Assembly: GCF_900110485.1 (NCBI RefSeq)
Contig: NZ_FODY01000020.1
Span: 1-64,000, forward strand
DNA: 64,000 bases
Origin: Propionispora vibrioides
GTDB lineage: Bacteria; Bacillota; Negativicutes; Propionisporales; Propionisporaceae
Direction: 5' to 3'
Program-made: the position numbers and the translations under genes
In this document: one piece after another, positions 29,951-62,287 of the stretch
Position numbering within the stretch: position 1 is the stretch's first letter
Layout of the letters: every line of letters begins with the position of its first letter
The notes under the pieces: generated by a model
Database searches by the model: none
Seen by the model: the letters and a program-made list of their open reading frames with translations, nothing else
Told to the model about the DNA's origin: nothing

Positions 29951-29952
29951 GT

Positions 29953-30116: not shown

Positions 30117-30138
30117 ATAAAACAGGAGGTTGATAAAT

Positions 30139-31396: not shown

Positions 31397-31401
31397 ACCC
31401 G

Positions 31402-31448: not shown

Positions 31449-31490
31449 GAAGGAACCACTGAAATAGACAAAAATAAGGAGGGTTTTACT

Positions 31491-32954: not shown

Positions 32955-32955
32955 G

Positions 32956-33252: not shown

Positions 33253-33277
33253 GGGTGGGGGAAGAGGGGAAACAGTC

Positions 33278-39355: not shown

Positions 39356-41029
39356 TTAATCAGTGCGTAATTGTAAATGACGTTGATGATAGGGCAGCAA
39401 GCCCTTCCGGTGGCCAACGCTGATCAGCGTGGTTGCCGGAAGCTTTTGCCGGAGACAGGCGTAGAGCCGCTCTTCCGTAGCCGGATCGAGACTGGCAGTT
39501 GCTTCATCTAAAAAGAGCCAGGCGGGCTTGTGCAGGATTGCTCTGATTAGCGACAGGCATTGCTGCTGACCAAGGGATAAGCTTTTAGGCCAGTCTTCAT
39601 ACTCATTCAGCCTGGCGTACAGAGCGGGCAATTGGCAGCAAATTAACAGTTCTTGCAGGACTTCATCGCTGACCGGCGGATGCTGGGGATAAAGCAGAAG
39701 CTCCCGTAAAGTGGTTTTAAAGAGATAAGGCGTTTGTGGCAGGAAAAATTGGGATTGCCGGCCCGGTTTTAGTACCAGGCCGCTGAAGTGAGGCCAAATA
39801 CCGGCAATGGTCCGCAGCAGCGTTGTTTTGCCGCAGCCTGGCGGACCGCTGATCAGCAGGTGTTCCTGTGGGCGGAGTGTGCAGGAGATATTTTTTTGCA
39901 GAACGTCGCCGGTAGGTGAAAATAAAGTGACATTTTTTAGTTCAAACTGATTTGCTTTTTGCGGGACGGTAGTTCCTTCGGCCTTGGCCAGCTTTTCCAC
40001 AGCCGACATCATATGGATAAAATGGGTAAGCCGGATATGGACGGCTTTCCAGAGAGCCAGTTTATTAAAGTTTTCCACCATATAGGACAATGAGGCGTGG
40101 ACATACCAATAAGCACCGGAGATTTCAAATAACTGGCCTAACTGTATTTCGTTGGAAAAGTAACGGGGCGACGATACCAGAAAGGCGAACACGATGGATA
40201 ACTGAGAGTAGGCTACCGACAGCAGGGTAAGATTTTTCGTGGCCTTGGCAATGGCCAGGTAATTTTGCGCCAGCTTTCTAAAATGCCTGGTGAGGGTTAT
40301 TTGTTCCGTTGCTTCGCCCCTGTAGAGGGCCACGCTTTCGTCATGGCCGCCCAGATGATCCAGGTGACTGCGGAAATCGGCTTCGGCGGTTTGCTGGACT
40401 ACATTGCGGGAAACCAGCGGAAGGCCGGCCCGGAAAGTAAACCAGGTTCCGGTAAGTGAGTAGAACAAGGCCAGCCAGAGCAGATAGCCGGGGAGAGCAA
40501 ACGGGAAAAAGGGTAGTGTCAGCGTACCGGATAATTGCCAAAGGACAGTGGAAAATACGGCCAGTGTAGTCAAGTGGCGCAGCACGTCCACCACAATATC
40601 AACCGTGGTATTGATGAAAATACGAATATCTTCACTGATTCGCTGGCCCGGATTGTCAATGGACGTTTGCAATAGGTTCAGATGATAGTAAGTCCGGTTA
40701 GTCAGCCAGAGACGGGTAAATACGTCAGTCAGCCACTGCCGCCAACGGAGCTGCAGCAGCAGCTTGCCGTAAGACTGGTAGCCTGAGGTCAGGATATAGA
40801 GGGTCGATATGAGCAGAAACTGCAGCAGGGTCCGGTGAAAGCCGGGGCGGTCATAAGCCTGCAACTGGTTGTAAAAGCCTGCCTGCCAGTTGTTTAAGGC
40901 CAGATTGAGCGATACGATGACGACAGTACAGCCGATAACCAGCAAAGCGAGAAACCAGGCCACGTGGCTTTTGCCGGAAACCCAGTAAGTAAGAGAAAGT
41001 CGCAGCAGATTGTTGGGCGGAGCTTTCAA
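39356..41029 (-). CDS. SbmA/BacA-like ABC transporter (permease-ATPase fusion)
   Basis: 557 residues from a TTG start at 41029, chosen because AAGGAGG lies 7 bases upstream; an ATG at 41074 would add 15 residues without a site. N-terminal membrane domain (about 320 residues, ABC_membrane_2 type: SLNLALNNWQAGFYNQLQ, LTYWVSGKSHVAWF), then an ATPase domain with Walker A ISGPPGCGKTTLLR, signature SLGQQQCLSLIRA and Walker B AWLFLDEATASLD. The family includes ABCD4 and mycobacterial BacA, both linked to cobalamin transport. The gene is divergent from a B12-riboswitch region, so a role in corrinoid movement is possible but unproven. Confidence 0.85.
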   Translation of the reverse strand: MKAPPNNLLRLSLTYWVSGKSHVAWFLALLVIGCTVVIVSLNLALNNWQAGFYNQLQAYDRPGFHRTLLQFLLISTLYILTSGYQSYGKLLLQLRWRQWLTDVFTRLWLTNRTYYHLNLLQTSIDNPGQRISEDIRIFINTTVDIVVDVLRHLTTLAVFSTVLWQLSGTLTLPFFPFALPGYLLWLALFYSLTGTWFTFRAGLPLVSRNVVQQTAEADFRSHLDHLGGHDESVALYRGEATEQITLTRHFRKLAQNYLAIAKATKNLTLLSVAYSQLSIVFAFLVSSPRYFSNEIQLGQLFEISGAYWYVHASLSYMVENFNKLALWKAVHIRLTHFIHMMSAVEKLAKAEGTTVPQKANQFELKNVTLFSPTGDVLQKNISCTLRPQEHLLISGPPGCGKTTLLRTIAGIWPHFSGLVLKPGRQSQFFLPQTPYLFKTTLRELLLYPQHPPVSDEVLQELLICCQLPALYARLNEYEDWPKSLSLGQQQCLSLIRAILHKPAWLFLDEATASLDPATEERLYACLRQKLPATTLISVGHRKGLLPYHQRHLQLRTD

Positions 41030-41167
41030 GGAACAGCCTCCTTTAACGGAATGGAAATGGCTGATGCAGTTCATTATATGAGGTGCCGGAACATGGTATG
41101 AGTGCGGGATTTTGAATGGGGGACAATGTGATACGCTTAGAATATATTGTATACAACCGAATATATG

Positions 41168-41196: not shown

Positions 41197-41239
41197 TTAA
41201 TTAAAGGAAAAACAAAGATTTTTATAAAATTTCATATGA

Positions 41240-41392
41240 AATCAGGTATCCGGCAGTAGGCCGGATTTAAAAGGGAAGTCCGGTGTGATTCCGGCGCTGT
41301 CTCGCAACTGTGAAGGAGAGCCATGTTTCTGTAAGCCTCTTACCAAGGAGGAAGATGGCCATGACCCTAAGTCAGGGTACTGCCTGGTTTTA
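41240..41392 (+). promoter_or_regulatory. Cobalamin riboswitch 7 (variant core)
   Basis: Shows AAAAGGGAAGTCCGGTGTGA, GCTGTCTCGCAACTGTGAA and the box AAGTCAGGGTACTGCCTGG. The GCAACUGU core and shorter arms differ from the other ten here, so it is a separate subtype. Terminator at 41564. No gene lies between it and riboswitch 8. Confidence 0.82.
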
Positions 41393-41563
41393 GCATCCGT
41401 ACAGCCTGCGATGGACAGGTCTGGGATTAAGAACACTTGCAGGCATGGAGATAGCTCTCTGAGTTATAACTTGACGGTAGGCTTATTAAGATGAGCCTTT
41501 TCGCCTTAATAGCATGTAGGTTCTTAACCCGGCATTGACAGCAGGCGGCTTTGAAAAAAGTAA

Positions 41564-41610
41564 AGCGTCAATTGTTCCGCCGGACGGAACGATTGACGCT
41601 CTTTTGTTTA
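41564..41610 (+). terminator. Terminator of riboswitch 7
   Basis: AGCGTCAATTGTTCCGCC / GGACGGAACGATTGACGCT then CTTTTGTTT. Confidence 0.85.
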
Positions 41611-41688
41611 TCGGCAAGTCGTATGACGAAGCATATCGATAAGCAGGACTGCATAGGATGAGAAAGTGACGAAAACTATATAGCGTTG

Positions 41689-41878
41689 GGATAGGTGCCC
41701 TACGGGGCTTAATAGGGAAGCCGGTTGAAGGCCGGCGCGGACCCGCCACTGTAATGGGGAGCAAACTTGCAGTATAGTGTCGATCTTAAACTTGATCGTA
41801 CTGTACTCTGCCACTGGAGCGAACGCTTTGGGAAGGCGCAGGGGAGCGAGGAACCAGAGCCAGGAGAACTGCCTTATC
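41689..41878 (+). promoter_or_regulatory. Cobalamin riboswitch 8
   Basis: GGTGCCCTACGGGGCTTAAT, GGGAAGCCGGTTGAAGGCCGG, GGACCCGCCACTGTAATGG and GAGCCAGGAGAACTGCC. One arm is enlarged by a long hairpin (CTTGCAGTATAGT...CTGTACTCTGCC). Repeated 484 bases further as riboswitch 9. Confidence 0.93.
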
Positions 41879-42005
41879 CGACAATCACCGTTGGTGTTGT
41901 GACAAGTTCAAAATAGGAACTTGTTGCCACACAGAACCCGCGATGGACCGGGGAGGGGATTACGCTTAAAACCAGGGACAGTGTCTGCCTGGTTGGCGTA
42001 AGCAC

Positions 42006-42030
42006 ACTCCCGTAAAGGGAGTTTTTTTAT
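42006..42030 (+). terminator. Terminator of riboswitch 8
   Basis: ACTCCC-GTAAA-GGGAGT with a TTTTTTT tail, after a strong hairpin (TTACGC...GCGTAA, AACCAGG...CCTGGTT) likely to be part of the switch. Confidence 0.85.
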
Positions 42031-42172
42031 TTGGTACACCTGGACCGGTGGATCTGGTAAAGGGTTAGCTGTGTACAGGCTTTGCGATGGCTTTACATAA
42101 CAGGTTGGAGCCTATAGTGAGGCAGTCGCGCAGTACCGCATAGGAAGAAAGTAACACAACTATATAGCGTTG

Positions 42173-42364
42173 GGATAGGTGCCCTACGGGGCTTAATAGG
42201 GAAGCCGGTTGAAGGCCGGCGCGGACCCGCCACTGTAATGGGGAGTGAACTTGCAGTATAGTGCCGATCTTAAACCTGATCGTACTGTACTCTGCCACTG
42301 GAGCGAACGCTTTGGGAAGGTGCAGGGGAGCGAGGAACCAGAGCCAGGAGAACTGCCTTATCCG
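42173..42364 (+). promoter_or_regulatory. Cobalamin riboswitch 9
   Basis: Near-identical to riboswitch 8, including the enlarged arm; the differences are mostly single bases. Immediately precedes the 42.6-52.5 kb operon. Confidence 0.93.
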
Positions 42365-42490
42365 ACAATCACCGTTAGTGTGTGACCAGTTCAAAATTAG
42401 GAACTTGTTGCCACACAGAACCCGCGATGGATCGGGGGAGGGGATTACGCTTAAAACCAGGGACCGTGTCCGCCTGGTTGGCGTAAGCAC

Positions 42491-42512
42491 ACTCCCGTAA
42501 AGGGAGTTTTTT
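42491..42512 (+). terminator. Terminator of riboswitch 9
   Basis: ACTCCC-GTAAA-GGGAGT then TTTTTT; same as for riboswitch 8. Confidence 0.85.
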
Positions 42513-42612
42513 ATTTGGCAGGTTGCTTTGTAGCCAAGGCAGGGGTTAGCCGTAGACAAGCCCCGCCGCCGGCTGTACATAACAGATAGAGATTATGGTA
42601 AGGAGAGAGTAC

Positions 42613-43056
42613 ATGAAAAAAATATCCCGAATGATTTCTCTGGTGGCAGCGGCTTTGTTCCTGTCCGGACTGGTTGCGCCGGCCCCGGCTCTGGCCGCTA
42701 AGGCCGCCCCAGAACCAAACGTCGGCTATGTCGACCGGCAGCAGGTTTTTAACAGTTATCCTGGCATTCAGGACCTCCTGCGGCAGATTCAAAGCATGCG
42801 GGAGGCGGCGCAAAAAGACTATGACGCCCGGAGCAAAGATCTGTCGCCCGGGGAGCGAAAAGCACTGAATGATACCATCGCCCGCGAGGAAGCGCAGCGG
42901 GAGGACGCCCTGATGAAACCGGTAGGCGATAAAATCGAGGCGTCGATCAAGGCTGTAGCCGGAGAAAAGGGCTTGCCCGCCATCGTCGACGCAGGCATTG
43001 TGGTCTATGGCGGCATCGACATCACCGCCGACGTGATTGCCAAAATGAAACAGTAA
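42613..43056 (+). CDS. OmpH/Skp-like periplasmic protein
   Basis: 147 residues from ATG 42613 (AAGGAGAG site); an upstream ATG at 42595 has none. Signal peptide KKISRMISLVAAALFLSGLV...ALA. The mature part starts NVGYVDRQQVFNSYPGIQDL, the OmpH family hallmark, followed by a helical, charged region and a C-terminal VYGGIDITADVIAKMKQ. Skp-type proteins chaperone outer-membrane proteins in the periplasm. As first gene of the operon, it may help fold the double-barrel protein encoded at 44.7 kb (inference). Confidence 0.88.
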   Translation: MKKISRMISLVAAALFLSGLVAPAPALAAKAAPEPNVGYVDRQQVFNSYPGIQDLLRQIQSMREAAQKDYDARSKDLSPGERKALNDTIAREEAQREDALMKPVGDKIEASIKAVAGEKGLPAIVDAGIVVYGGIDITADVIAKMKQ

Positions 43057-43167
43057 GCGGCGGCGTGTTTGGCGGCACTGAAAGCCTAACCGTCCTGCCC
43101 GGCCGTGATAACGACGCCCGGACAGGCTGTGATAGGAATTCGTGATAAGGAGGTGAGTTCTTTTCCG

Positions 43168-43224
43168 ATGAGCAGTAAGGGAAAGACCTCAGCAGCCGAC
43201 AAGCTGTTGGGGGGCGCAAGGTAA
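43168..43224 (+). CDS. Possible 18-residue peptide
   Basis: ATG 43168 to TAA 43222 encodes MSSKGKTSAADKLLGGAR; AAGGAGGTGAG lies at 43147-43157. The spacing of 14 bases is long; an in-frame GTG at 43154 is too close. It sits 27 bases before the next gene, whose product also begins MSSK. May be a short translated peptide or a relic; low confidence. Confidence 0.3.
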   Translation: MSSKGKTSAADKLLGGAR

Positions 43225-43251
43225 GAAAAAGCAAAAGGGAGAGTGAGTTGT

Positions 43252-44670
43252 ATGTCTAGTAAAGTAGCGGTAACTGCCTATAACTATCCGGCGCCTGATT
43301 ACGTTGGGGTGGGGGATGTCAGCACGGCCCAGTATGCCGGCGGTACCAGCGGTACCGTGATTGCCACGCAGACAGGTGTGGTCACCCAGTATACCGATGG
43401 TGGCAGTACGGTCTCGCTGCCTGGTGACACCAAAGTATTCCACTTCAAAAACAGCTCCGGTGTGGATCAGGCTTTGGTTACAGCAACACAGTGGACTAGC
43501 GGGACGCCGGTATGCAAATACCTGATTTTTGATGCTACCGTTCCAGCCACGATTCCTACCGGTTACAATTGGGGAACACCGGTGTATGGTCCTACCACCT
43601 GGGCCATTGGCAGCACTGCCTTAGCCAACCTGTACAAAATCCAGACAACGACCATCAGCGGTACCTTCTATATCTACGGCATTGACTATGATGCCGCCAG
43701 CGCCTTCCGTCTCGCGGCCAGCGGCTCGACCTATACGCTGGATACCACCAATTACTATACCTTTGACCGGCCTTCTGCGGCCAGTGAAGGACACGGCGTT
43801 GATTTGCAAATTGTCGGCAGTAATGTGTTTACTCTCTGGATCAGCGGGACCAACCTGTCATCGGGAGCGCCCAGCGCATCTTACCTTGACAGTACGGTGG
43901 TTAAGACCAATCTGACGTTCGGCGGCGCCACCTATGCCGGACCTCATGGCAGCACGACGCCGAGCGGGACTAAGCCGGCTAAAAACGCATTCAGCATCCA
44001 GCCCTATAGCGGCGTACTGCTGCTGACTGCCATCGGCGGACCGCAGCAGGCCGGCACCTGGAATCCTGACTCCCGCATTCAACAGATTGATCAGAGCACG
44101 CTGGCTGTTAGCGATTTGCTTTTGGCAGCCGCCAGTTCCAGTGATCCGGCGGAAGACCAGTTCGATTTCCGGGCGCTGTCGTTTAATGCCAGTGGTACGG
44201 AAGTCTTTATTCTGACGGGCATCTACAATTCCAGCTTTTCTACTATGAATTGGCGTTTGTACTGGCTCACTATGAACTCACTGCTCAATGCCGGTGGTGC
44301 TTTGCTTAGTGATTTAGTGGCAGCCAGTGCTCCAGATCCAACGGCAACGGTTATAACGTCGGGAAGCTCAGCCGGCTATCTTTGGGCGCTGCTGTATTCG
44401 GAAAGTACGCAGAAAACCTGGTTCAGCCGCGGCAATGATCTGGCAATTTACAATACCGGCGGTATGGTCGGCAGTGCGGCGGCGATCGGTAGCCTGACCA
44501 CCCTGGGCAGCGGCTCCTATCTTAACTCCATTACCATCTACGGCGGCGAAGAGGCGCCAACAGCCAAGACCTTAAAAGGCTATGTTGCACCGGCCTTCGC
44601 CTCCAATACGGCGGCAGCCCTTATCGAACGCAAGCGCTTGCTGGAGCAAATTGCGGCAGCCAAAGACTAA
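43252..44670 (+). CDS. Unknown beta-rich Ser/Thr/Gly-rich protein (472 aa)
   Basis: Start ATG 43252 with GGGAG upstream; an in-frame GTG at 43243 is less likely. No signal peptide and no membrane segment; few cysteines; many Ser, Thr, Gly, Tyr. Segments such as YLDSTVVKTNLTFGGATYAG, TEVFILTGIYNSSFSTMNWR and TIYGGEEAPTAKTLKGYVAP suggest beta-propeller-like repeats, but I recognise no family. Ends with a basic helix (AALIERKRLLEQIAAAKD). A terminator follows, so downstream genes are partly insulated. Co-regulation by B12 riboswitches suggests a corrinoid-related role. Confidence 0.8.
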   Translation: MSSKVAVTAYNYPAPDYVGVGDVSTAQYAGGTSGTVIATQTGVVTQYTDGGSTVSLPGDTKVFHFKNSSGVDQALVTATQWTSGTPVCKYLIFDATVPATIPTGYNWGTPVYGPTTWAIGSTALANLYKIQTTTISGTFYIYGIDYDAASAFRLAASGSTYTLDTTNYYTFDRPSAASEGHGVDLQIVGSNVFTLWISGTNLSSGAPSASYLDSTVVKTNLTFGGATYAGPHGSTTPSGTKPAKNAFSIQPYSGVLLLTAIGGPQQAGTWNPDSRIQQIDQSTLAVSDLLLAAASSSDPAEDQFDFRALSFNASGTEVFILTGIYNSSFSTMNWRLYWLTMNSLLNAGGALLSDLVAASAPDPTATVITSGSSAGYLWALLYSESTQKTWFSRGNDLAIYNTGGMVGSAAAIGSLTTLGSGSYLNSITIYGGEEAPTAKTLKGYVAPAFASNTAAALIERKRLLEQIAAAKD

Positions 44671-44682
44671 GCAGCGTTTCTG

Positions 44683-44714
44683 GCGGAGGGAATGGCTTGT
44701 CCCTCCGCTTTTTT
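44683..44714 (+). terminator. Intra-operon terminator
   Basis: GCGGAGGGA / TCCCTCCGC with TTTTTT, 26 bases before the TTG start of the fusion gene. Probably lowers expression of the distal genes. Confidence 0.8.
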
Positions 44715-44739
44715 ATGTAAGCAGTAAGGAGAGAATGCA

Positions 44740-47700
44740 TTGCGAAAGTGGAAAAAACGGATACAACGGAAAAAACGGGCAAGACAGGCTCTGCTGGCGA
44801 TCGTCCTGGCGGCCGCTTTGGGCTGTGCTGCACCGGTAAAGGCGGCAACGGTCGTGATAGCTGGTGAGACGGTAAACGATTCAGAGTTAGGTACGGCAAG
44901 TGGACCGGCCACTTACACCGTCGGCGCGGGGCTGACAAAAACAACCTGGGCTAATGCAGACCAGACCAATTCTTCGGCTTTGCGCTATAAGGCAGTGGTT
45001 ATTGAAAATGGTGGGGTTTGGCGACCCATGGATCTTAGCTTTACGACTGGAGATTTGACAATAGGTGCCGGCGCGGTCCTGGACATGACCTATAAGTACG
45101 AAAATTATCCTTACGATGGGACATCGACCGACGGCATAGAGTTTGTCCGGAATTTTAATAACAATAATAATACTGCGACCAAAACAGTCTTTTATGATGG
45201 GGCCATCCTGCGGGGAACGATATGGAGTAATTCGAGAAAAACGACATTTACCTTTAAGAACCCGCAGTTTGGGACCGGGGAATCATCGGCCACCGTCAAA
45301 GTCCAGTGGCGGTTTGATAAAAGCTTTTTCAGCGGCACCAACAGCGGCGTGGCGGCAGGCAGTTGGGAAGCGGCCAAGGCGATCAATTTAAACGGGACAG
45401 TGGGTAGCGTTATCACTCTAAGAAATTTAGACGCCGGTGTGGAACAAAACCTGAGCTTTGTGGCGGAGGTCGACAATAGTTACGTTGACGATGCGCTGCA
45501 CAAATATTTATTTGTGCCGACCCTGACCACCAATTATGTTTCCGGTGCCACTAAATACTATGATTTAAGCTGGACCGCCACCCGGACCGACTTCTTGTCC
45601 CAGGGCGTATTCAGCGCCGCCAATGCCCAGCTTTCCCTGCGTAATTTGTGGCGGATCGAGGACGGTCTGTTCTGGAAGAGGGGCGAAGAGCTGCGCGCCG
45701 CCGATCGGCTGGGACAGGACGACGAAGGGGCTGACGGAGCCTGGGCGCAAATCTGGCGCGGTAAGTATGATTTTGACGGTGTCGTTGCTTCGGGCTTCGG
45801 CCAGAGCTATGACGGCATTCAACTTGGCTATGACAAGCAGCGCGAGGGCAAGCTGTTCGGCGGCAAGCTCCATAGCGGCCTGTTCCTCAGCTTGCTCAAT
45901 TCCGATGCCGATTTCCATCAGCACACGGTTCTCAGCGATAATGGCGTGGATAAAGCCTATTACACACACGCCAATGGCGATCTGGACAGTAAAGGAATTG
46001 GCTTGTATACCACCTGGGCCGGTGATAAAGGCCACTACCTGGATTTTACCGTTCGCGGCTCCCGACTCAGCAACAAGTATCAATACTACGATGCCGACGA
46101 TAATCTATATGACAACGACTACAGCACCTGGACCTACGGAGCCGGTTTTCGCTACGGGTATCAACAAGAGCTGCACAAGGGCTGGTATTGGGAACCCCAG
46201 GCTGGCCTGTCTTATGGCACGATGAAGGATTATAGTTACACCGCCGGCAATAACCTGCGTTATAACCAGGAACAGATGGATATGCTGATCGGCCGCTTTG
46301 GCGTCACTGCCGGCCGGAATTTCACGCATGGTGATAAACGCGGCACGGTCTATGCCAAGGCTGCGGTCAACCATGACTTTAAGGACGGCGGCAGCGGTAG
46401 CGCGGACGCTCTGGTCTGGGATGCCTCGCTCAATGGTTTTTCCGGCGGCTGGAAGGTGGGAGCCACCCTGCCTATGAATACCCTAGCCGGTAAGGATACT
46501 TGGTACGAATTCGCCCTGGGGGCCAATCTAATGATTGGGAAAGATAAAAACGCCTTTGTCGAACTGACCAAAACCACCGGTGGCAAGGTTAATACCGACT
46601 GGCAGGTGAATGCTGGGCTATCCTGGCGCTTTAACGGGCCTGTTGCCGGCAAAGGCGAGCTTTCTCAGCCTCCTGCCACCGGTAATAGCCTGAACGAAGG
46701 AGAAACCTTGCCAACCGGGCAGTCAAGCGGGGCAAGTTCATTAGCGGCGCAGTCAAGTCAAGCCGAACGCTCTGCTAAGACCGGCCCAATGGCACTAAAC
46801 CAGGAGGATTTATCTAGCAGGGCTGCGACCAATGGAACGGCTGCAGCCGGAGATGGGACAGAACAAAGAGCGGCACAGGCTGTTGCCGTTGCGCAAAGCG
46901 GACAGCTTGCGGCGCAATTGCCTGATCAGGTACCGGCGGACAGCCGAACTATGCAGACAAAACCGGCCAGCGGCGACGGGCAGCCGGTCGCTGTCCCTAC
47001 TTCTGCCGGCGTCAGAACCGTCGCTGCCGCAACGGAAACGGCGGTTGCCGACAGCGGCGAGACAGCAACTTTTACCTTGGAACCCTTGGTGGTCGAAGCC
47101 AAGCGCCCCGATTGGGAGAAAAAGCTCTCACCCGGCACCGTTTCGGTTATTCATGTGCCGGAGTATAAGGGCGAAATGAAAAATCTGCCCGACCTGTTGC
47201 AGACCGTACCCGGTGTTTACGTGCAGCGGTTGCAGGGCACCGGCCATTATAGCGTGGCCCGCGTCCGCGGTTCGACCGGCGGCCAGGTTAATATCTACGT
47301 CGATGGCGTACTCGTTAATTCCAATGCCGATGCCGCGGTCGATTTGTCAACTATTCCGGTGGAAAATGTTGAACGGATCGAAGTCTATCGCGGCTATGTA
47401 CCGGCCCGCTTTGCCGGCGCGCCCATCGGCGGGGCGATCAACATTGTCACCAAGAAGCCCCAGGACACCAAGGGCAGCATCACGACTGGCCTGCGCTCCT
47501 TTGACGGTTATACCGGCAATCTGGAAGTGACCGCGCCGGTGGGCGGCGGCAGTATGCTGTTCGCCCTTAACCGCGATCAGGCGGCGGGTGATTTCCACTA
47601 TGACCATGTGTATCAGACTTCCCAGAACGTTCCTGCCATTACCGAGAGCAAATGGCGCAAAAACAATGACTATCATAACACGGACGCCCTGCTGAAATGG

Positions 47701-49140
47701 CAGGATGACAACTGGTTCGCCAAGCTGACCTATCAGAATAACAGCACGGCCTTCCCGCAGTCCGCCTATGGGCAATATGCCGACGACATTGATCTTTCCG
47801 GCAAACGCCAGGAGATAGAAAAAACAGAGCTTTCGCTGGGGCGGCGACAGACCGCCGGCAATCTCGAATGGGGCTGGCGGTTGGACGGTTCCTATCAGTA
47901 CAAGCAGGCAACCGATATGGACGTTAAGTCTTTAGTGAGTGGTAATGTAAAGTTCACCGCCGACAATGAATTCCGTAATCGGCGCTTAGGCGGTGCGGTT
48001 GACGGTAGCTGGAAAATGGGCAAAGCCCATTTGGTTGAGTTTCTGTTGGACACCTCCCGTGAAACCATGAAGGTGGACACCAATAATTACAATAAGTGGC
48101 CGAATTGGGACAGCAGTGTCGGCAGTAATCAGGCCAAGGCGCTATATTCTAAATTCTTTAAGAACGACTACCAAAGCGATAACTATTACTTCCAGGTACA
48201 GGATACTATGACGCTCAACAAGAGCGGCAACCTGTTCTTTACTCCGGTACTGCGGGCGCAGAAGCTGGCTATGGATGTCGATTTGGGCGATCCCGATCTG
48301 GATCGATGGAATTACTCCTACGGTCTGGGCTTGAAAAAAGTGCAGAACGATCATTGGACCTTCCGCAGCACTTATGGCACCTACCATAAATATCCCAACT
48401 GGTATGAACTGTTCGGCGATGGTGTTAACGTCAAGTCCCGCTGGGAAATGTATTCTACGACCAAGGTATCCGATTATTTGACCAACTCGTTTGTGGAACA
48501 CGGTACCAGTTGGGACGTCAGCGCCAACTGGCAAGGCCAGGCGGCCGGAGCAGATGCTGATGTGACATTGACTTACTTCAACCGCCGTTCCAAAAACTTA
48601 TTAAGTTATACGCTAGATCCCTACGGCTTTGGTTACTACACCAATCTGGCAGCCGGCAACATTCAGGGGCTGGAACTGGAAAGCAAGCTGCTGTGGAAAC
48701 GCTGGGACCTTCTGTTGGCAGCTACTTGGAACGACTCAATGGTAACTAAAGGCGGCAAAGACGGTCTGGTAATCCCCTCCGAGACTGCAGCCGGCAACCC
48801 CTTCCCCTGGATACCCGAATGGGAAGGCAATATTCGTCTGGGCTATCGTTTCCCCGGCGACAAGCTTAGCGTTTTTGGCGAGTATCATTACCTGGGTGAA
48901 ACCGGTGTGTATTTCGGCAGCAAAACAGCGCTGTATGAACCACTGGGCTTGATCAATATCGGCCTAAAATATGATATAAACAAAGAACTCAAACTGACTA
49001 CCGGCATCAATGACCTGTTTGACAAGGGACCTGATCAATTATGGTACCGTAGTGGGTATGGTACGTTGGATGCCAGTGGCAGCGTGGCCTATCCGCAGCA
49101 AGGCCGGACCTATTATATGACCATGCAGTACTTTTTTTAG
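44740..49140 (+). CDS. Autotransporter-barrel / TonB-dependent receptor fusion (1466 aa)
   Basis: TTG start with AAGGAGAG 5 bases upstream, then a signal peptide (ALLAIVLAAALGCAAPVKA). Layout: passenger-like beta-rich region about 36-318; autotransporter barrel about 320-632 (WAQIWRGKYDF, GIQLGYDKQ, YWEPQAGLSYG, ending NAGLSWRFNG); an Ala/Gln/Ser-rich linker about 633-775; then a TonB box (TLEPLVVEAKRP, about 781), a plug (LPDLLQTVPGVYVQR, VNIYVDGVLVN, VERIEVYRGYVPARFAGAPIGGAINIVTKKP) and a second barrel ending YYMTMQYFF. Both halves are complete in one frame, giving two predicted outer-membrane barrels in one chain. B12-riboswitch control points to corrinoid uptake. Confidence 0.9.
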   Translation: MRKWKKRIQRKKRARQALLAIVLAAALGCAAPVKAATVVIAGETVNDSELGTASGPATYTVGAGLTKTTWANADQTNSSALRYKAVVIENGGVWRPMDLSFTTGDLTIGAGAVLDMTYKYENYPYDGTSTDGIEFVRNFNNNNNTATKTVFYDGAILRGTIWSNSRKTTFTFKNPQFGTGESSATVKVQWRFDKSFFSGTNSGVAAGSWEAAKAINLNGTVGSVITLRNLDAGVEQNLSFVAEVDNSYVDDALHKYLFVPTLTTNYVSGATKYYDLSWTATRTDFLSQGVFSAANAQLSLRNLWRIEDGLFWKRGEELRAADRLGQDDEGADGAWAQIWRGKYDFDGVVASGFGQSYDGIQLGYDKQREGKLFGGKLHSGLFLSLLNSDADFHQHTVLSDNGVDKAYYTHANGDLDSKGIGLYTTWAGDKGHYLDFTVRGSRLSNKYQYYDADDNLYDNDYSTWTYGAGFRYGYQQELHKGWYWEPQAGLSYGTMKDYSYTAGNNLRYNQEQMDMLIGRFGVTAGRNFTHGDKRGTVYAKAAVNHDFKDGGSGSADALVWDASLNGFSGGWKVGATLPMNTLAGKDTWYEFALGANLMIGKDKNAFVELTKTTGGKVNTDWQVNAGLSWRFNGPVAGKGELSQPPATGNSLNEGETLPTGQSSGASSLAAQSSQAERSAKTGPMALNQEDLSSRAATNGTAAAGDGTEQRAAQAVAVAQSGQLAAQLPDQVPADSRTMQTKPASGDGQPVAVPTSAGVRTVAAATETAVADSGETATFTLEPLVVEAKRPDWEKKLSPGTVSVIHVPEYKGEMKNLPDLLQTVPGVYVQRLQGTGHYSVARVRGSTGGQVNIYVDGVLVNSNADAAVDLSTIPVENVERIEVYRGYVPARFAGAPIGGAINIVTKKPQDTKGSITTGLRSFDGYTGNLEVTAPVGGGSMLFALNRDQAAGDFHYDHVYQTSQNVPAITESKWRKNNDYHNTDALLKWQDDNWFAKLTYQNNSTAFPQSAYGQYADDIDLSGKRQEIEKTELSLGRRQTAGNLEWGWRLDGSYQYKQATDMDVKSLVSGNVKFTADNEFRNRRLGGAVDGSWKMGKAHLVEFLLDTSRETMKVDTNNYNKWPNWDSSVGSNQAKALYSKFFKNDYQSDNYYFQVQDTMTLNKSGNLFFTPVLRAQKLAMDVDLGDPDLDRWNYSYGLGLKKVQNDHWTFRSTYGTYHKYPNWYELFGDGVNVKSRWEMYSTTKVSDYLTNSFVEHGTSWDVSANWQGQAAGADADVTLTYFNRRSKNLLSYTLDPYGFGYYTNLAAGNIQGLELESKLLWKRWDLLLAATWNDSMVTKGGKDGLVIPSETAAGNPFPWIPEWEGNIRLGYRFPGDKLSVFGEYHYLGETGVYFGSKTALYEPLGLINIGLKYDINKELKLTTGINDLFDKGPDQLWYRSGYGTLDASGSVAYPQQGRTYYMTMQYFF

Positions 49141-49195
49141 CCGGCGGATCATAGGTAAATGAATAAGGAAAGTTGGTAAATTTGCAAATAAAAAT

Positions 49196-49234
49196 GGAAA
49201 CGCTGCTGCGGCATTTGGCCGGAGCAGCGTTTCC
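49196..49234 (+). other. Hairpin between the fusion gene and the protease gene
   Basis: Perfect 12-bp stem GGAAACGCTGCT / AGCAGCGTTTCC without a T run, just before the protease ribosome site. May stabilise or process the transcript. Confidence 0.5.
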
Positions 49235-49255
49235 CAATGGTGAGGAGGTATGAAG

Positions 49256-50152
49256 ATGAATGCCAGAATTGTTCTGCCTGACAGCCGGGTGGTGGGTACG
49301 GGCTGGCTGCCGCCCCTGCCTGATCTGCGTGATTACAATGAGGACCATCCCAATCTGCAGCAAACGTTGAAAAAGCTGGGAATGGACCGGGATACTCCTT
49401 TGCCGGACCGGGTAGATCTTAGGCAGTGGTGCTCACCTGTCCAGGACCAGGGGGCGCTGGGTGCCTGCACCGCTCATGCGGCGGCAGGCATGGTCGAGTA
49501 TTTTGAGAATCGTTCCTTTTCCCGGAATATGACCGCTTCCCGTCTGTTTATCTATAAGAACGCCCGAAATCTACAGGGAGTGGCCGGCGACAGCGGTTCC
49601 TATATCCGAGATACCATGGGAGCTCTGGCCTTGTGCGGCGTACCGCCGGAAAAATACTGGCCCTACACCGACAAAGCGCCTGACTTTGATAAAGAACCGA
49701 CCTCTTTTGTCTATGCGGTGGCCGACAACTATGAAGCGCTGCAGTACTTTTGCCATGATGCCGCCGGGGTTAATCCGGCTCCGGCCGATGTTCTTGGCAG
49801 CGTAAAAAAATACCTGGCGGCCGGAATTCCCAGCATGTTTGGTTTCTACGGTTTTGCTTCCTTTACGGCGTCCGATGTACCCGGCGGCATCCCGGCTCCC
49901 GGTCCGAATGAACAGGCTCAATGGGGGCATGCCGTGGCGGCTTTCGGCTATGATGATACGCTGGCAATGAGAAACACCCAATATAATAAGGAAACTACCG
50001 GAGCCTTGCTGATCCGTAATTCCTGGGGCAGTGCCTGGGGCGATGCCGGCTATGGCTGGCTGCCCTATGAATATGTCCTGAACAAGCTGGCGACAGACTT
50101 TTGGTCGCTCTTAAACATGGAATGGATTGCCGCCGATCAATTTGGCCTGTAA
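49256..50152 (+). CDS. Papain-like (C1A) cysteine protease, no signal peptide
   Basis: 298 residues from ATG 49256, 8 bases after GAGGAGG; ATG 49250 is too close. Catalytic Cys71 in VQDQGALGACTAHAA, His in WGHAVAAFGYDD and Asn in LIRNSWGSAWGDAGYGWLPY, with the oxyanion Gln in QDQG; all expected residues are present. The 50 residues before the domain (LPDSRVVGTGWLPPLPDLRDYNEDHP) resemble a short pro-segment. No export signal. In this B12-controlled operon it could process a partner, such as the fusion protein or the beta-rich protein, or digest corrinoid-binding proteins. Confidence 0.88.
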   Translation: MNARIVLPDSRVVGTGWLPPLPDLRDYNEDHPNLQQTLKKLGMDRDTPLPDRVDLRQWCSPVQDQGALGACTAHAAAGMVEYFENRSFSRNMTASRLFIYKNARNLQGVAGDSGSYIRDTMGALALCGVPPEKYWPYTDKAPDFDKEPTSFVYAVADNYEALQYFCHDAAGVNPAPADVLGSVKKYLAAGIPSMFGFYGFASFTASDVPGGIPAPGPNEQAQWGHAVAAFGYDDTLAMRNTQYNKETTGALLIRNSWGSAWGDAGYGWLPYEYVLNKLATDFWSLLNMEWIAADQFGL

Positions 50153-50198
50153 AAAGAAACGATAGTAACGGCAGAAGGAGAAAGGGGGAGAGTGTTTT

Positions 50199-51323
50199 AT
50201 GAGCCTGATTGACTGGTTTAGCAATTTATTTGTTAAAGAGTCGAAGCATTATGTATTTGCGCCGGTAACGTCGGACGTGGAACGGATCGAATTGAAAGAG
50301 GGGCAGCATTATCTCCGGCTGCGCCTGGCGGAAATGTTTTTAAAGGATGACCGCAAATTATTCCGCAGCTATGTGCCGGTGGTTTCTTCCGTTGTCGAGC
50401 TGCAATTCGGCAGCAATGCCGCGCAGCAGTTACCCAGTGTAGCCGGACCGCTTTCGCTTAATCTGAATGCAACTTCCTTAGGCAAGGGGGTAGAACTGAA
50501 TTATGCCTTGACCAACCTGGTACCTTACCGTGGCGGCACTGTATCCATCAGCGCGGCCCTGCTGGCTTATGTGAATAAAGACTATTTTCAGCCGTTTATC
50601 ACACTGGCCAACAGTATTTCCAGCCTGCTGACCAGCGGCCAGTTGTCAACCACCCTTAAAGTAGTCGACAGCGCGGTCAATAGTCTGCAGGACCTCCTGG
50701 ACGGTGGTGACAAGGACATCCGTCTGGTGTATCATAATGAATATGCCGGTACGGACAGCCTGGGCGGTGTATCGCTGACAAACGGCTATTTCGTTGTAAT
50801 AAATGCCGATGCCGGGCAATTTGCCACGGAAAAGCTGCTGGTTAAAGCTTCACGGCTTTGCTATGGCGAGGATGCAGCAGCGGCTAAACCGCTTACCGGT
50901 TACGACTATATGCTGTTTAGTGTGGAAGCGGCGCTGTACCGGGACGATTTCCGTTATTTTGACGAATACAACAGCTTGCTCTATACGGCCATTGAAAAAG
51001 GCATGACCGACAGAAGCGAAGGGGACGCCGTCATCCGGGCGGCGATGCTGGCTGTGTTCAAATCGGACGATCTGACTTATGTCGATAAAACACGGGTCGC
51101 GGCGGCCTTGAAACAGGAATATGAAGAGCGGCTTTCGCTGCAGGAAAAACCGGCTGGCGACAAGGAAGAATGGCTGCATGACAGGGCGCTGGCCATCGAT
51201 CCGGCAGCGGTGGCTGAAAAAATTACGCCGCTCCTGAAACCCTATCCGTTGGATGATACGGTGGTAGCCGATCAAATTCTGAGGATGATTTTCAATAATG
51301 TTTTTGCGTTGCCCGAATTGTAA
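50199..51323 (+). CDS. Unknown protein (374 aa)
   Basis: No family recognised. No signal peptide or membrane segment. N-terminal half beta-rich (HYVFAPVTSDVERIELKEG, VVELQFGSNAAQQLPSV, GTVSISAALLAYV), middle with ISSLLTSGQLSTTLKVVDSAVNSLQDLL, C-terminal half helical and acidic (YFDEYNSLLYTAIEKGM, ALKQEYEERLSLQEK). GAAGGAGAAAGGGGGAG gives a strong ribosome site. Lies between the C1 protease and cbiZ, 46 bases after the former, so surely the same operon. It could be the protease's partner or substrate. Confidence 0.8.
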   Translation: MSLIDWFSNLFVKESKHYVFAPVTSDVERIELKEGQHYLRLRLAEMFLKDDRKLFRSYVPVVSSVVELQFGSNAAQQLPSVAGPLSLNLNATSLGKGVELNYALTNLVPYRGGTVSISAALLAYVNKDYFQPFITLANSISSLLTSGQLSTTLKVVDSAVNSLQDLLDGGDKDIRLVYHNEYAGTDSLGGVSLTNGYFVVINADAGQFATEKLLVKASRLCYGEDAAAAKPLTGYDYMLFSVEAALYRDDFRYFDEYNSLLYTAIEKGMTDRSEGDAVIRAAMLAVFKSDDLTYVDKTRVAAALKQEYEERLSLQEKPAGDKEEWLHDRALAIDPAAVAEKITPLLKPYPLDDTVVADQILRMIFNNVFALPEL

Positions 51324-51389
51324 GGCTTGCAGGTCAGGTCGTATGTTTTTTAGTGCCCCTAAGGCGGGTTGTCAGATACGGAGGAAGTT

Positions 51390-52487
51390 ATGAAGATATA
51401 TGAGCTAGCGAATGGCGATTCGGTTTACCGGTCCGAAAAAAGCATCATCATCCGGTTTAAAGAGTCCCGTAAAGTTCTCAGTACCTCCATCTATAACGGA
51501 GGGTATCAGGAACAGTTGACGGCCGTGTTTAATTACGACTGCGCCGTACCTAACGGCAGCTGTACCTGGCGGGCGGCCAATTATGACGAATACATGCGTC
51601 AGGCCGCGGCCGGGTTGGATCTGGCGCCGGATACGGTTTCCGGTATGGCTACGGCAGCGGCGATGGACAATGTGGCCATTCATACGGCCTGTTACCAGAG
51701 CTTGCAGGTTACGGCGCTGGTCACCGGCGGAATTGAGGAGAACGGGGGAAGGGTGGGCGACCCGGCCACGTATTTTGAACCGGCGGAACGAAATACCTTG
51801 TATAAGCCGGGTACGATCAATATCTTCTTAGTGATTGATGCGGATATGCCGCCGGCCTCACTGGTACGGGCGCTGGTGACCTGCACGGAGGCCAAAACCG
51901 CCGCTTTGCAGGAGCTGATGGCCGGCAGCAATTACTCCACCGGTCTGGCAACCGGCTCAGGCACCGATCAGACTATGATCATTGCCAATCCCCACTCGCC
52001 CCTGTATTTGGAGAGTGCGGGAAAGCATGCCAAGCTGGGTGAACTGATCGGCTGTGTGGTTAAACAGGCCGTAAAGGAAGCGTTGCAGCGGCAGACCGGA
52101 CTGTCGCCCACGCTGCAGTATAGTTCGCTGCGGCGGCTCAAGCGGTTTGGTGTGCGGGAGGAAACCCTGTGGGATTTTTATCGGCAAGAAAGCGGTGATT
52201 CCGATCAAGTGCGGTTTTTACAACGGTTGCGATGCCTGGATGCCAATTCCCGGCTGGTAACCTACACTTCACTCTATGTCCATTTGCTGGACCAATGGCT
52301 TTGGGGGCTGTTGAACCCGGAAGAAGTCCGTCGGACCGGACAGGAGCTAATCGAACAGGTAAGTTCCCGTTTTGGCATAGGTGCACCGCAAATTGGCGGG
52401 GGGAAATTGGAGGATTATTTGACGGCCTGGGGCAGGCTGCTGGCGATGCTGGCAAGTAAGACAATGACCGTGAAAAATAGTTTATAA
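51390..52487 (+). CDS. cbiZ: Adenosylcobinamide amidohydrolase family protein
   Basis: 365 residues from ATG 51390 (GGAGGA site); the TTG at 51369 is weaker. The first 230 residues carry the CbiZ signature: LVTGGIEENGGRVGDPATYF, GTINIFLVIDADMPPASLVRA, TEAKTAALQELMAGSNYSTG and LATGSGTDQTMII. CbiZ cleaves the aminopropanol side chain of cobinamide to cobyric acid for salvage and remodelling. About 130 extra C-terminal residues (from LKRFGVREETLWDFYR) are of unknown role. Last gene of the operon, and the clearest link of the whole operon to corrinoids. Confidence 0.92.
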   Translation: MKIYELANGDSVYRSEKSIIIRFKESRKVLSTSIYNGGYQEQLTAVFNYDCAVPNGSCTWRAANYDEYMRQAAAGLDLAPDTVSGMATAAAMDNVAIHTACYQSLQVTALVTGGIEENGGRVGDPATYFEPAERNTLYKPGTINIFLVIDADMPPASLVRALVTCTEAKTAALQELMAGSNYSTGLATGSGTDQTMIIANPHSPLYLESAGKHAKLGELIGCVVKQAVKEALQRQTGLSPTLQYSSLRRLKRFGVREETLWDFYRQESGDSDQVRFLQRLRCLDANSRLVTYTSLYVHLLDQWLWGLLNPEEVRRTGQELIEQVSSRFGIGAPQIGGGKLEDYLTAWGRLLAMLASKTMTVKNSL

Positions 52488-52541: not shown

Positions 52542-52581
52542 TTAACACGAAAGTTACAAATCGTACAAATTACATAAGCAA

Positions 52582-52742
52582 GAAACAGGTGCCCGTTAGG
52601 GCTTAATAGGGAAGTCCGGTGTAATGCCGGCGCGGTCCCGCCACTGTAATGGGGAGCAAAGCCAAGAATATGCCACTGGAATGAAGTTTCTGGGAAGGTT
52701 TGGCGGCGCGATGATCCGGAGCCAGGAGAACTGCCTGTTTAA
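52582..52742 (+). promoter_or_regulatory. Cobalamin riboswitch 10 (gldA)
   Basis: P1 AAACAGG / CCTGTTT, GGCTTAATAGGGAAGTCCGG, GGTCCCGCCACTGTAATGG and GAGCCAGGAGAACTGCC. Followed by a terminator at 52825 and gldA at 52885. Confidence 0.94.
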
Positions 52743-52824
52743 CAATCACCGTTATAACCTGCGAGCGATGGGGAGGGGATTACGCATAGGCCAAGGCCGT
52801 TGTCTGTCCGATTAGCGTAAGCAT

Positions 52825-52884: not shown

Positions 52885-53991
52885 ATGGAACGGATTATGA
52901 TATCTCCCAGTCGGTATGTGCAAGGCAGTGGTGCCATGAAAAATATTGGCCGCCACATTTTGCTCTTAGGCAATTGTGCGCTGTGCATTGGTGGCAAACG
53001 GGGGCTGCAGTCGGTTGAAGCGGAATTACGGCAAAGCTGCAGCGAGCACCAGGTTACCTGCTCGTTGGAAACCTTTCGGGGCGAATGTTCGAAGGCTGAA
53101 ATTGACAGACTGGTTGGCATCACGGAACGGCTTGGCGCTAATGTGATTGTCGGAGTCGGCGGCGGCAAAGCGCTGGATGTGGCTAAGGCAGTAGCTTATT
53201 ACGCCAAGCTGCCGGTGGCGATTGTACCTACCATTGCTGCCACCGATGCACCCTGTAGTGCTTTGTCGGTTATTTATTCCGAACAGGGAGTCTTTGAGTC
53301 CTATCTGGTTCTGCCCAGAAATCCGGATTTGGTATTGGTGGATACGTCAATTATCGCCAAGGCGCCGATCCGCTTGTTTGTGTCCGGCATGGGTGACGCG
53401 CTGGCCACCTGGTTTGAGGCTGAGGCCTGCAGCAAAGCTCCGGCGCTTAATTTACCAGGCGGCTTGTCCACTGCGGCGGCGTTATGCCTGGCGCGGCTAT
53501 GCTTTGATACTTTGCTGGACTATGGCTTTCCGGCCAAGCTGGCAGTGGAGAAGGGCGTCGTTACGGAGGCAGTGGAAAAGGTTGTAGAAGCCAATACTTT
53601 ACTCAGTGGTCTGGGGTTTGAAAGCTCCGGGCTGGCGGCAGCGCATGCCGTACACAACGGGTTTACCCTGTTACCGGAAACTCATGCGATGTATCATGGT
53701 GAGAAGGTTGCTTTCGGCACGCTGGTGCAACTGGTAATGGAAAATAGAAAGACCGAAGAAATCGAGCGGGTTATAAAGTTTTGCATCGAGGTTGGGCTGC
53801 CGGTCACCTTGGCGGACATCGGCGTAAAACAAGTTTCCGATGAGAGAATCTACCAAGTGGCAGAAGCAGTTTGTGCCGGCGGCGAAACGGTGCATAATGA
53901 GCCCTTTGCCGTTACTGTCGACGGAGTCTATGCAGCCATTCTGGCGGCCGATGCGTGGGGCAAGCATTGCCTGAAAGAGTGGCGGAACTGA
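52885..53991 (+). CDS. gldA: Glycerol dehydrogenase
   Basis: 368 residues, full length. Start region MISPSRYVQGSGAMKNIG; NAD loop VIVGVGGGKALDVAKAV; IVPTIAATDAPCSALSVIY; metal-ligand region FVSGMGDALATWFEA, GLAAAHAVHNGFTLLPETHAMYHGEKVAFG. Oxidises glycerol to dihydroxyacetone with NAD+, or reverse. Directly downstream of cobalamin riboswitch 10, so it should be made when B12 is low, when a B12-dependent glycerol dehydratase would not work. Alone between riboswitch 10 and the btuB unit. Confidence 0.92.
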   Translation: MERIMISPSRYVQGSGAMKNIGRHILLLGNCALCIGGKRGLQSVEAELRQSCSEHQVTCSLETFRGECSKAEIDRLVGITERLGANVIVGVGGGKALDVAKAVAYYAKLPVAIVPTIAATDAPCSALSVIYSEQGVFESYLVLPRNPDLVLVDTSIIAKAPIRLFVSGMGDALATWFEAEACSKAPALNLPGGLSTAAALCLARLCFDTLLDYGFPAKLAVEKGVVTEAVEKVVEANTLLSGLGFESSGLAAAHAVHNGFTLLPETHAMYHGEKVAFGTLVQLVMENRKTEEIERVIKFCIEVGLPVTLADIGVKQVSDERIYQVAEAVCAGGETVHNEPFAVTVDGVYAAILAADAWGKHCLKEWRN

Positions 53992-54060: not shown

Positions 54061-54097
54061 AACACGAAAGTTATAAATAGTACAAACTACATAGTAA

Positions 54098-54256
54098 GAA
54101 ACAGGTGCCGTAAGGCTTAATAGGGAAGTCCGGTGTAATGCCGGCGCGGTCCCGCCACTGTAATGAGGAGCAAGGCCAAAAAAATGCCACTGGGATGAAA
54201 ATCCTGGGAAGGTTTGGCTGCGCGATGATTCAGAGCCAGGAGAACTGCCTGTTTGA
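54098..54256 (+). promoter_or_regulatory. Cobalamin riboswitch 11 (btuB)
   Basis: P1 GAAACAGG / CCTGTTT, GGCTTAATAGGGAAGTCCGG, GGTCCCGCCACTGTAATGAG and GAGCCAGGAGAACTGCC. Controls the btuB-cbiR-btuFCD block. Confidence 0.94.
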
Positions 54257-54324
54257 CAATCACCGTTTGACCCACGAGCGATGGGAAGGGGATTTTAGAT
54301 GCAGGTCTTTCGTTTTCATCTATC

Positions 54325-54422: not shown

Positions 54423-56330
54423 TTGAAAAGGAAAGGAAAACACAGTAAAGCCGTGCTCTGTGCCTTGCTCAGCAGCGCCGTTCTCTGCCAAATCCCGGGA
54501 ATATCCTGGGCGGAAGGCGAGGATAACCAGTTTGATTTTGATCCCATCGTAGTAACAGCTACCAAGACACCGGTAAAGCTTTCAGAATCTAATGCCAACC
54601 TGACGGTGATTACCCGTAAGGATATTGAAGAACAGCATTACTCTGATTTATCGGAAGCCTTACGGAATGTACCCGGTGTAACCATCAATAATTTCGGTAC
54701 AGGTATTGGTTATGAAGCGTCGAACATGCTGCGAATTAACGGTTCCGATAAAATCGTTGTATTAGTTGACGGTGTCAGAGTGGATGCGGCAGGGGTTAAT
54801 TTTGCTGCCGCCGCATACGGCAATCTGGATAATGTGGAAAGAATTGAAATACTAAAAGGAGCCGCCGCCTCTCTATATGGGGCAAATGCCAAAGGCGGGG
54901 TTATTCAGATTATTACGCGAAAGGCTGAGGAAAACAAAAGTACGCTGACCTATACCGGCGGCAGCTATGATAAGGAAAACTATGCTTTCATGAATCAAGG
55001 CAAATCAGGCGATTACAGTTGGGTTGTTACCAGCCAGAAGGATATCATGGGAGATTATAGGGATGCTAACGGCACTACGGTTCCAGAGCACCGTAATGCA
55101 GAGACCACAACCTTTAAACTGACTAAGGCGATTAATGAAAAGTCGGACATAACCTTTGACTATCAGAAGTATCAGTCGGACTATATGTATTCGGGAACGA
55201 ATTATTATCTAAGCCAGCGTAATCCGGGGAATATGGATAATTACAATTGGAAATTGATTTATAATAATCAATTAACGGACAATCTAAAAAACCGGCTGAC
55301 TTTTTATAATGGTGTATATGATAATACGTTCCAAACCAATGATCCCTATTGGGGAATGGGTATAGGTACATCCTGGACAAAAGTAAAAACTATGCGGTTG
55401 CAGGACGAGTTTACTCAAACCTTTGCCGACAATCACACCGTTACCGGTGGTTTTGAATATTCACGGGACAAAGTGGTTTCCAGCGGGAATAAAAAGATCA
55501 GCAATTCTGCCTACTATGTTCAGGATGAGTGGGATTTGGACCGGCGATGGAAGCTGACTTCCGGCATCCGCTATGATGACAGTACGCAATACGGTTCCAA
55601 TACTTCGCCACACGTCAATATCGGATATAAAGCCAGCGATGAGACAAATTACTATATTTCTTATAATAAATATTTTATTGTGCCGACCCCTTATCAAGTG
55701 TTTAATGACACTTACGGCAATTATAATTTGAAAGCGGAAAAAGGTGACAATCTGGAACTTGGTGTGAATCATCAATTAAGTGATACGTTGAGCACCGCAT
55801 TTCATCTATTCAGAAGAGATTCCAGCAATGCCGTAGGGTTTGACATGAGTTCATATAAGTACGTTAATTTTGATGAAAAAGCTCATGGCTGGGACATTCA
55901 GTTAAACAAAAAGTTGACGGAGCAATTGAGTACATATATCGGTTATACTCACACTACTATCGATCCTACGGTTGAACGGTCGCAAAATGTAGATGGCTGT
56001 ATTCCCAAAGGATACTGGAATGTAGGAGTAGATTATCGTCAGGAAAAATACGATGTTCATTTGCAGGGCCGTGGTGTGTTTGATAAACCAGGTCCGCAAA
56101 ATAGTGCTGCTTATAGCAACTATTTTCCTGAAAACACCTATTGGGTATGGGATTTGGCCTTGAACTATAAAATAACCCCCAATACAAAAACCTTTTTGCG
56201 GGTTAATAATTTGTTAGATAAGTTCTATGCAGAACAGTCCTATGCCAGATCCGACTATGGCGGTAGTCCTGGTGAATGGTATACCAGCCCTGGCCGCAAC
56301 TATCAACTCGGAGTTCAATATCAATTCTAA
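54423..56330 (+). CDS. btuB: TonB-dependent corrinoid receptor BtuB
   Basis: 635 residues, TTG start after TTGGGGGGAAAAC. Signal peptide ending ISWA; TonB box DPIVVTATKTP; plug with LSEALRNVPGVTINNFG, KIVVLVDGVRVDA and NVERIEILKGAAASLYGANAKGGVIQIITRK; a 22-strand-type barrel ending YQLGVQYQF with the terminal Phe. Size and motifs match BtuB/Cir-like receptors. Energised by the ExbB/ExbD/TonB encoded at 62-64 kb. Under riboswitch 11 and followed by CbiR-like and BtuFCD genes, so corrinoid import is well supported. Confidence 0.92.
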   Translation: MKRKGKHSKAVLCALLSSAVLCQIPGISWAEGEDNQFDFDPIVVTATKTPVKLSESNANLTVITRKDIEEQHYSDLSEALRNVPGVTINNFGTGIGYEASNMLRINGSDKIVVLVDGVRVDAAGVNFAAAAYGNLDNVERIEILKGAAASLYGANAKGGVIQIITRKAEENKSTLTYTGGSYDKENYAFMNQGKSGDYSWVVTSQKDIMGDYRDANGTTVPEHRNAETTTFKLTKAINEKSDITFDYQKYQSDYMYSGTNYYLSQRNPGNMDNYNWKLIYNNQLTDNLKNRLTFYNGVYDNTFQTNDPYWGMGIGTSWTKVKTMRLQDEFTQTFADNHTVTGGFEYSRDKVVSSGNKKISNSAYYVQDEWDLDRRWKLTSGIRYDDSTQYGSNTSPHVNIGYKASDETNYYISYNKYFIVPTPYQVFNDTYGNYNLKAEKGDNLELGVNHQLSDTLSTAFHLFRRDSSNAVGFDMSSYKYVNFDEKAHGWDIQLNKKLTEQLSTYIGYTHTTIDPTVERSQNVDGCIPKGYWNVGVDYRQEKYDVHLQGRGVFDKPGPQNSAAYSNYFPENTYWVWDLALNYKITPNTKTFLRVNNLLDKFYAEQSYARSDYGGSPGEWYTSPGRNYQLGVQYQF

Positions 56331-56402
56331 GCAACAGAGGAAAGAGAGAAGATGCCTGATGCCGGGGATCTTCTCTCGTAATTTTATTTTTGTGAGGAAG
56401 TC

Positions 56403-57365: not shown

Positions 57366-57457
57366 CGGAATGATCCATGGCGAGGTTTTTTTGCGCCAGG
57401 CGGATTATACCCCAAAGGGGCACGCGAATTTTTGCAGGAATAGCGGCCCCTATTCCA
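57348..57457. repeat. Composite of short repeats
   Basis: GGCGTGTCTTC...AACGGAATGATCCA (57348-57377) matches 31402-31432, and GCAGGAATAGCGGCCCCTAT near 57434 is identical to part of family A copy 5. Fragments of mobile repeats. Confidence 0.55.
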
Positions 57458-57550
57458 AAAAAAAATGTAATGAAGTATGGCATAAAAAGCGCCGTCAGGG
57501 AGCGTTTTGGATAGTTTGAAGATACGCCTTAGCGTAAGGAGGTAACCTTT

Positions 57551-58510: not shown

Positions 58511-58519
58511 GGCTGATTA

Positions 58520-60979: not shown

Positions 60980-61003
60980 GTATAAAGAAAGCAGGGACTT
61001 ATT

Positions 61004-62263: not shown

Positions 62264-62287
62264 TGAATGAAGAAGGGAGAGGGTGTC

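Follow-up and report, generated by a model that had tools for sequence, protein, structure and literature searches.

A cobalamin-controlled operon of Propionispora vibrioides, a diderm Firmicute of the Negativicutes, raises the question of how corrinoids are captured outside the cell and which of the operon's unfamiliar products take part. Within the window (the whole 64,000-nucleotide stretch analysed here), three cobalamin riboswitches precede six genes, all on the forward strand, that encode in order an OmpH/Skp-like chaperone, a beta-propeller, a double-barrel receptor, a papain-like protease, a 374-residue protein and the adenosylcobinamide amidohydrolase CbiZ. A first-pass annotation had described this layout, tied it to corrinoids through the riboswitches and CbiZ, and placed the protease and two proteins of unassigned kind outside the B12 uptake systems familiar to it. 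The arrangement is borne out by matches to RF00174, by terminators and by Pfam domains, and the tie to corrinoids holds, the operon being a corrinoid-capture locus. We consider it likely that the operon is a cobalamin-repressed system for corrinoid capture, import and remodelling, equipped with a lid protein resembling BtuG of Bacteroides.

The riboswitches lie on the forward strand at 41227-41401, 41676-41890 and 42160-42374 and score 74.8, 101.5 and 97.1 bits, respectively, against a cut-off of 31.5 bits for RF00174; position 41240, from which the operon had first been reckoned, falls just within the aptamer of the first. An intrinsic terminator comes after each (41564-41600, 42006-42022 and 42491-42507), the second and third modules form a tandem duplicate pair (94.7% over 394 nt), and one promoter-like site, at 41120-41148, stands 5' of the first riboswitch. 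At low intracellular cobalamin, RNA polymerase would read on across these three serial riboswitch-terminator modules. The genome as a whole carries 16 cobalamin riboswitches, 11 of which are inside the window. The first gene (42613-43056, forward strand) encodes an OmpH/Skp-like periplasmic chaperone with a signal peptide (PF03938, 3e-16), which is kept at the same place in six loci (L087, L088, L092, L099, L100 and L103), and the last (51390-52487, forward strand) encodes a CbiZ domain with a C-terminal extension (PF01955, 4.3e-58; 196.9 bits, exceeding the curated cut-off of 27). The starts of the chaperone, propeller and CbiZ genes (42613, 43252 and 51390) are probable ones, picked from ribosome-binding sites. 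The gene order is kept in several Negativicutes families, indicating that the arrangement is not due to chance.

The identity of the second product, U475 (43252-44670, forward strand), bears most directly on what the operon captures. Its open reading frame of 475 codons, or 472 from the likelier start at 43252, gave no match in a Pfam search. A profile built from six divergent homologues was searched against 177,635 distinct PDB sequences and returned three matches below E 1e-3 (8PTF, 8PTD and 8BLW; E 1.7e-6 to 7e-6) and nothing except BtuG below that threshold; the three entries are labelled YncE family protein, and their structural titles show BtuG proteins. One of these, 8BLW, represents Bacteroides thetaiotaomicron BtuB1G1 (PMC10404256). 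A second profile, of 25 sequences, gave the same BtuG result (E 4.6e-6); the sequence match is remote and covers only about 75-100 residues. AlphaFold, run without templates, predicted a seven-bladed beta-propeller with moderate confidence (pLDDT 60.6, pTM 0.71), and the ten chains that VIA-align placed closest to this model were all BtuG1, BtuG2 or BtuG3 (Z 22.3-23.9, rmsd 3.1-3.5, 305-316 residues), with propellers other than BtuG at Z 21.7 and lower, a gap of only about 2 Z units. The BtuG-specific signal comes from VIA-align and the profile search and not from Foldseek, which ranked assorted propellers with low TM-scores. Three residues, N245 (numbered from the start at 43252), G262 and N425, are invariant across 54 homologues, and N245 and a GG pair align with identical letters in BtuG. 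Judged by its sequence and predicted fold, the beta-rich protein is a BtuG-like propeller that most likely works as BtuG does, and its description as a protein of unassigned kind has to be given up. It is not a strict member of the BtuG family, because it lacks a lipobox and an export signal.

The genomic context of the propeller favours the same conclusion. It is present in 47 of 380 Negativicutes genomes, and of the 28 distinct cases in the neighbourhoods fetched, 27 show it beside a TonB-dependent receptor. A same-strand cobalamin riboswitch lies upstream of it in 22 of the 24 loci with enough context, against a chance expectation of less than 2% per gene, and Rfam confirmed the riboswitches in the loci checked; a binomial figure for this linkage is no proper probability, because the cases share ancestry. 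The 374-residue protein, found in 12 of 200 genomes of the class, is near the propeller in 11 of those 12. Co-occurrence of the operon genes thus favours corrinoid acquisition. The first-pass annotation had allowed that homologues of its unassigned genes and of the protease might be found mainly away from corrinoid genes; those of the propeller and the 374-residue protein proved to be linked, and the protease also occurs unlinked, in 12 genomes.

The closest known counterpart is the BtuB-BtuG system of Bacteroides (PMC6143338, PMC10404256), which shares a cobalamin-riboswitch locus, a propeller gene adjoining that of a TonB-dependent receptor, and, in BtuG1-3, the closest fold. The present operon differs in its host, which belongs to the Negativicutes and not the Bacteroidota; in its propeller, which carries no lipobox or export signal and in the class is signal-less or autotransporter-fused; in its receptor, which is fused to an autotransporter barrel; and in the addition of Skp, the papain-like protease and the 374-residue protein. 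BtuG was reported to be exclusive to Bacteroidetes, on the basis of a BlastP search of 313 human gut genomes with a threshold of 1e-10, and its authors posed the question of why Bacteroidetes alone had added a B12-capture protein (PMC6143338). We found no description of BtuG in Negativicutes in the open-access literature searched. BtuG-like propellers stand by B12-controlled receptors across this class, including Sporomusa and Selenomonadaceae; if they act as proposed, lid-assisted vitamin capture would have arisen in, or spread to, a second, unrelated diderm group with another route to the surface. These observations suggest a wider distribution of B12-capture lids and, in a diderm Firmicute, a new manner of displaying them.

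The receptor is a second point of departure. Pfam and NCBIfam models assign the third gene (44740-49140, forward strand) to a double-barrel outer-membrane protein of 1466 residues, laid out as a signal peptide, a passenger of ~290 residues, an autotransporter barrel (about 326-636), a linker of ~135 residues, a TonB box, a plug and a receptor barrel that runs to residue 1466; the Pfam spans are 334-577 for PF03797, 795-899 for the plug and 982-1426 for the TonB barrel. Its solved relatives are EspP for the autotransporter half and BtuB and Cir for the receptor half, and the best NCBIfam receptor model is TIGR01779 (BtuB), at 98.8 bits against a cut-off of 599.7 bits. An assembly artefact is ruled out, since about 18 other genomes carry the same fusion, invariably with the autotransporter barrel first, then the linker, the plug and the receptor barrel. 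By established autotransporter and receptor structure this topology is sensible: the chain leaves an autotransporter barrel on the periplasmic side, and the TonB box and plug have to lie there too. With the EspP-like type Va autotransporters the protein shares the PF03797 barrel, and some of its relatives carry the ESPR, an extended signal peptide associated with type V secretion; unlike in those autotransporters, the barrel is internal rather than C-terminal and is followed by the linker, a TonB box and an entire TonB-dependent receptor. No description of an autotransporter-TonB receptor fusion, as an outer-membrane architecture, was found in the open-access literature searched. Skp/OmpH would chaperone this large protein. 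An intrinsic terminator (44682-44709, forward strand) separates the propeller and receptor genes, and hairpins of differing sequence, most with a T run, occupy the same gap in the seven relatives examined; a terminator 3' of the propeller gene should yield more propeller than receptor. In the single-barrel receptors of L095 and L123, about 300 residues lie between the plug and the Pfam-matched barrel.

If the propeller works like BtuG, it would catch corrinoid outside the cell and pass it to the neighbouring BtuB-like TonB-dependent receptor, and the question becomes how it gets there. The copy in the window has neither signal peptide nor lipobox; a hidden or frameshifted signal peptide was sought, with none upstream in frame and nearby only an 18-codon mini-ORF. 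Most stand-alone homologues also lack a signal peptide, and three possess a plain Sec signal. The absence is real, because the close relatives L122, signal-less, and L124, with a signal peptide, differ at the same start context. We know of no export route for a signal-less propeller. The conserved start and the missing signals would suit a cytoplasmic protein, a BtuG-like binder that stores imported corrinoid or channels it to CbiZ together with the protease and the 374-residue protein, both likewise signal-less and cytosolic-like in composition, leaving only the receptor and Skp in the envelope. We regard this as unlikely. Charged residues (DEKR) make up mostly 10.7-14.7% of the signal-less propellers (L117, at 20%, is an outlier), as against about 23% of their cytosolic neighbours, and the signal-less propellers share a charge-poor, Ser/Thr/Asn/Gly-rich composition with exported ones, which favours a life outside the cell.

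The same domain is exported not only in the three stand-alone homologues but also in nine giant Negativicutes proteins of about 1,700-3,600 residues, in which a signal peptide is followed by the propeller as first domain. In the five cases in which the sequence reached the 3' end of the gene, a PF03797 barrel occupies the C-terminus (2e-42 and 4e-40 in two of them). These giants (L164-L173) adjoin a receptor and most have a riboswitch; their long middle part gave no Pfam match. As the signal-bearing N-terminal passenger of a giant autotransporter, the propeller is predicted to lie at the cell surface in those Negativicutes, and the receptor beside such a protein is without an autotransporter barrel. 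That this barrel is joined to either the receptor or the propeller leads us to read the three modules as serving one surface machine. In the operon in the window the receptor is tied via its periplasmic linker to the autotransporter barrel, the passenger of which may dock the propeller. For this operon we offer, tentatively, a two-barrel version of corrinoid capture, in which the autotransporter half would present or tether a leaderless BtuG-like lid to serve the TonB half. The lid would be exported without a signal, along a route not yet described, and elsewhere in the class the three modules would have been reshuffled, with the lid as passenger.

It is very improbable that another ligand, for instance a metal chelate or siderophore, is imported and that cobalamin acts only as regulator. 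Cir and BtuB match the TonB half equally well by score, and XusB, a siderophore-binding lipoprotein with a propeller, is among the structural matches; however, XusB (Z 19.5) ranks below BtuG (Z 22-24), and both the riboswitch linkage given above and the presence of CbiZ and btuFCD as neighbours speak for a corrinoid.

The fourth and fifth genes of the proposed capture operon are probably accessory. The papain-like C1 protease (49250-50152, forward strand; PF00112) has as its closest solved relative 3OIS (4.8e-35), which we take to be xylellain, a papain-like cysteine protease, and differs from it in operon context and in having no signal peptide. It was found in 31 of 200 genomes of the class. 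The catalytic residues Q67, C73, H227 and N257 are kept in all 26 sequences, and a tree held 13 corrinoid-linked copies and 12 unlinked ones. The latter form one supported clade (97/93), with all 13 linked copies across that branch; one protease lineage is exclusively corrinoid-linked. A role as processor of the double-barrel protein was rejected as a rule: the linked protease occurs with single-barrel receptors (L093, L095 and L096), and some double-barrel loci (L116, L117 and L121) are without it. The proposal of an exported protease that breaks down corrinoid-binding proteins outside the cell and so frees B12 for the receptor is unsupported and highly unlikely, for all its intact catalytic residues and corrinoid-linked lineage, because no signal peptide was found in any homologue, the composition is cytosolic-like, and the same three receptor-propeller loci do without it.

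The 374-residue protein (50199-51323, forward strand) gave no NCBIfam match, no credible PDB match and, with the threshold relaxed as far as E 5, still no Pfam match, and AlphaFold returned no usable fold (pLDDT 36). Among the genomes searched it is confined to the Negativicutes, and a phylum-wide sample of 299 genomes contained it only in the window's own genome. No signal peptide was found in it or in any of its homologues, and their composition is cytosolic-like; both this protein and the protease are probably intracellular, to judge from their sequences. Some Sporomusa and relatives (L030/L096, L100, L099 and L097) carry frame-broken copies of the propeller, the protease or the 374-residue protein, which suggests turnover of these loci.

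Candidate genes for the later steps of import flank the operon. On the reverse strand, at 39356-41074, an Rv1819c-type ABC transporter, divergent from the operon, is a candidate inner-membrane corrinoid importer; its best match among solved structures is 6TQE/6TQF (E 3.5e-73), 6TQE presumably being Rv1819c. Rv1819c transports corrinoids in Mycobacterium tuberculosis (PMC3603451). The transporter described here differs from it in standing beside a BtuFCD system, and a relative lies between btu genes in L094. The corrinoid region also runs on beyond 52487, where it had first been taken to end. One cobalamin riboswitch (52570-52752, forward strand) precedes a glycerol dehydrogenase-like gene (52885-53991), and another (54086-54266, forward strand) precedes a cluster (54423-63320) encoding a classical BtuB, a CbiR-like protein, BtuFCD and ExbBD; the CbiR-like name is our assumption for an AP-endonuclease-type TIM barrel (56403-57365). 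The TonB-dependent receptor half and the complete downstream BtuB/BtuFCD/ExbBD set are shared with the BtuB-BtuFCD system of E. coli, which to our knowledge has no propeller, autotransporter barrel or CbiZ. Captured corrinoid would pass onward to BtuFCD or to the divergent Rv1819c-like transporter, and CbiZ, with the CbiR-like protein, would strip the lower part so that the cell could rebuild its preferred cobamide. The genome contains CbiD, so cobamides are probably also made de novo, and import combined with CbiZ and the CbiR-like protein suggests salvage and remodelling.

Other loci in the window are also under B12 control. A cobalamin riboswitch lies 5' of the genes for B12-dependent methylmalonyl-CoA mutase and MeaB (8677-14984), which is unusual for an enzyme that uses the cofactor. 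Two cobalamin riboswitches precede FAD oxidoreductases with a resemblance to type 2 glycerol-3-phosphate oxidase (18346-22532); together with the glycerol dehydrogenase-like gene behind the riboswitch at 52570, these possibly serve B12-independent glycerol use. At 23076-34573, three tandem cobalamin riboswitches stand before genes recognised by their domains only, for acyl-CoA dehydrogenases, EtfBA, an acylating aldehyde dehydrogenase, an Fe-ADH, an HpaB-type protein and a CoA transferase. The HpaB-type protein is perhaps a 4-hydroxybutyryl-CoA dehydratase, and the locus possibly provides a B12-free route to butyrate, by way of 4-hydroxybutyrate, that is switched on when methylmalonyl-CoA mutase is without its cofactor.
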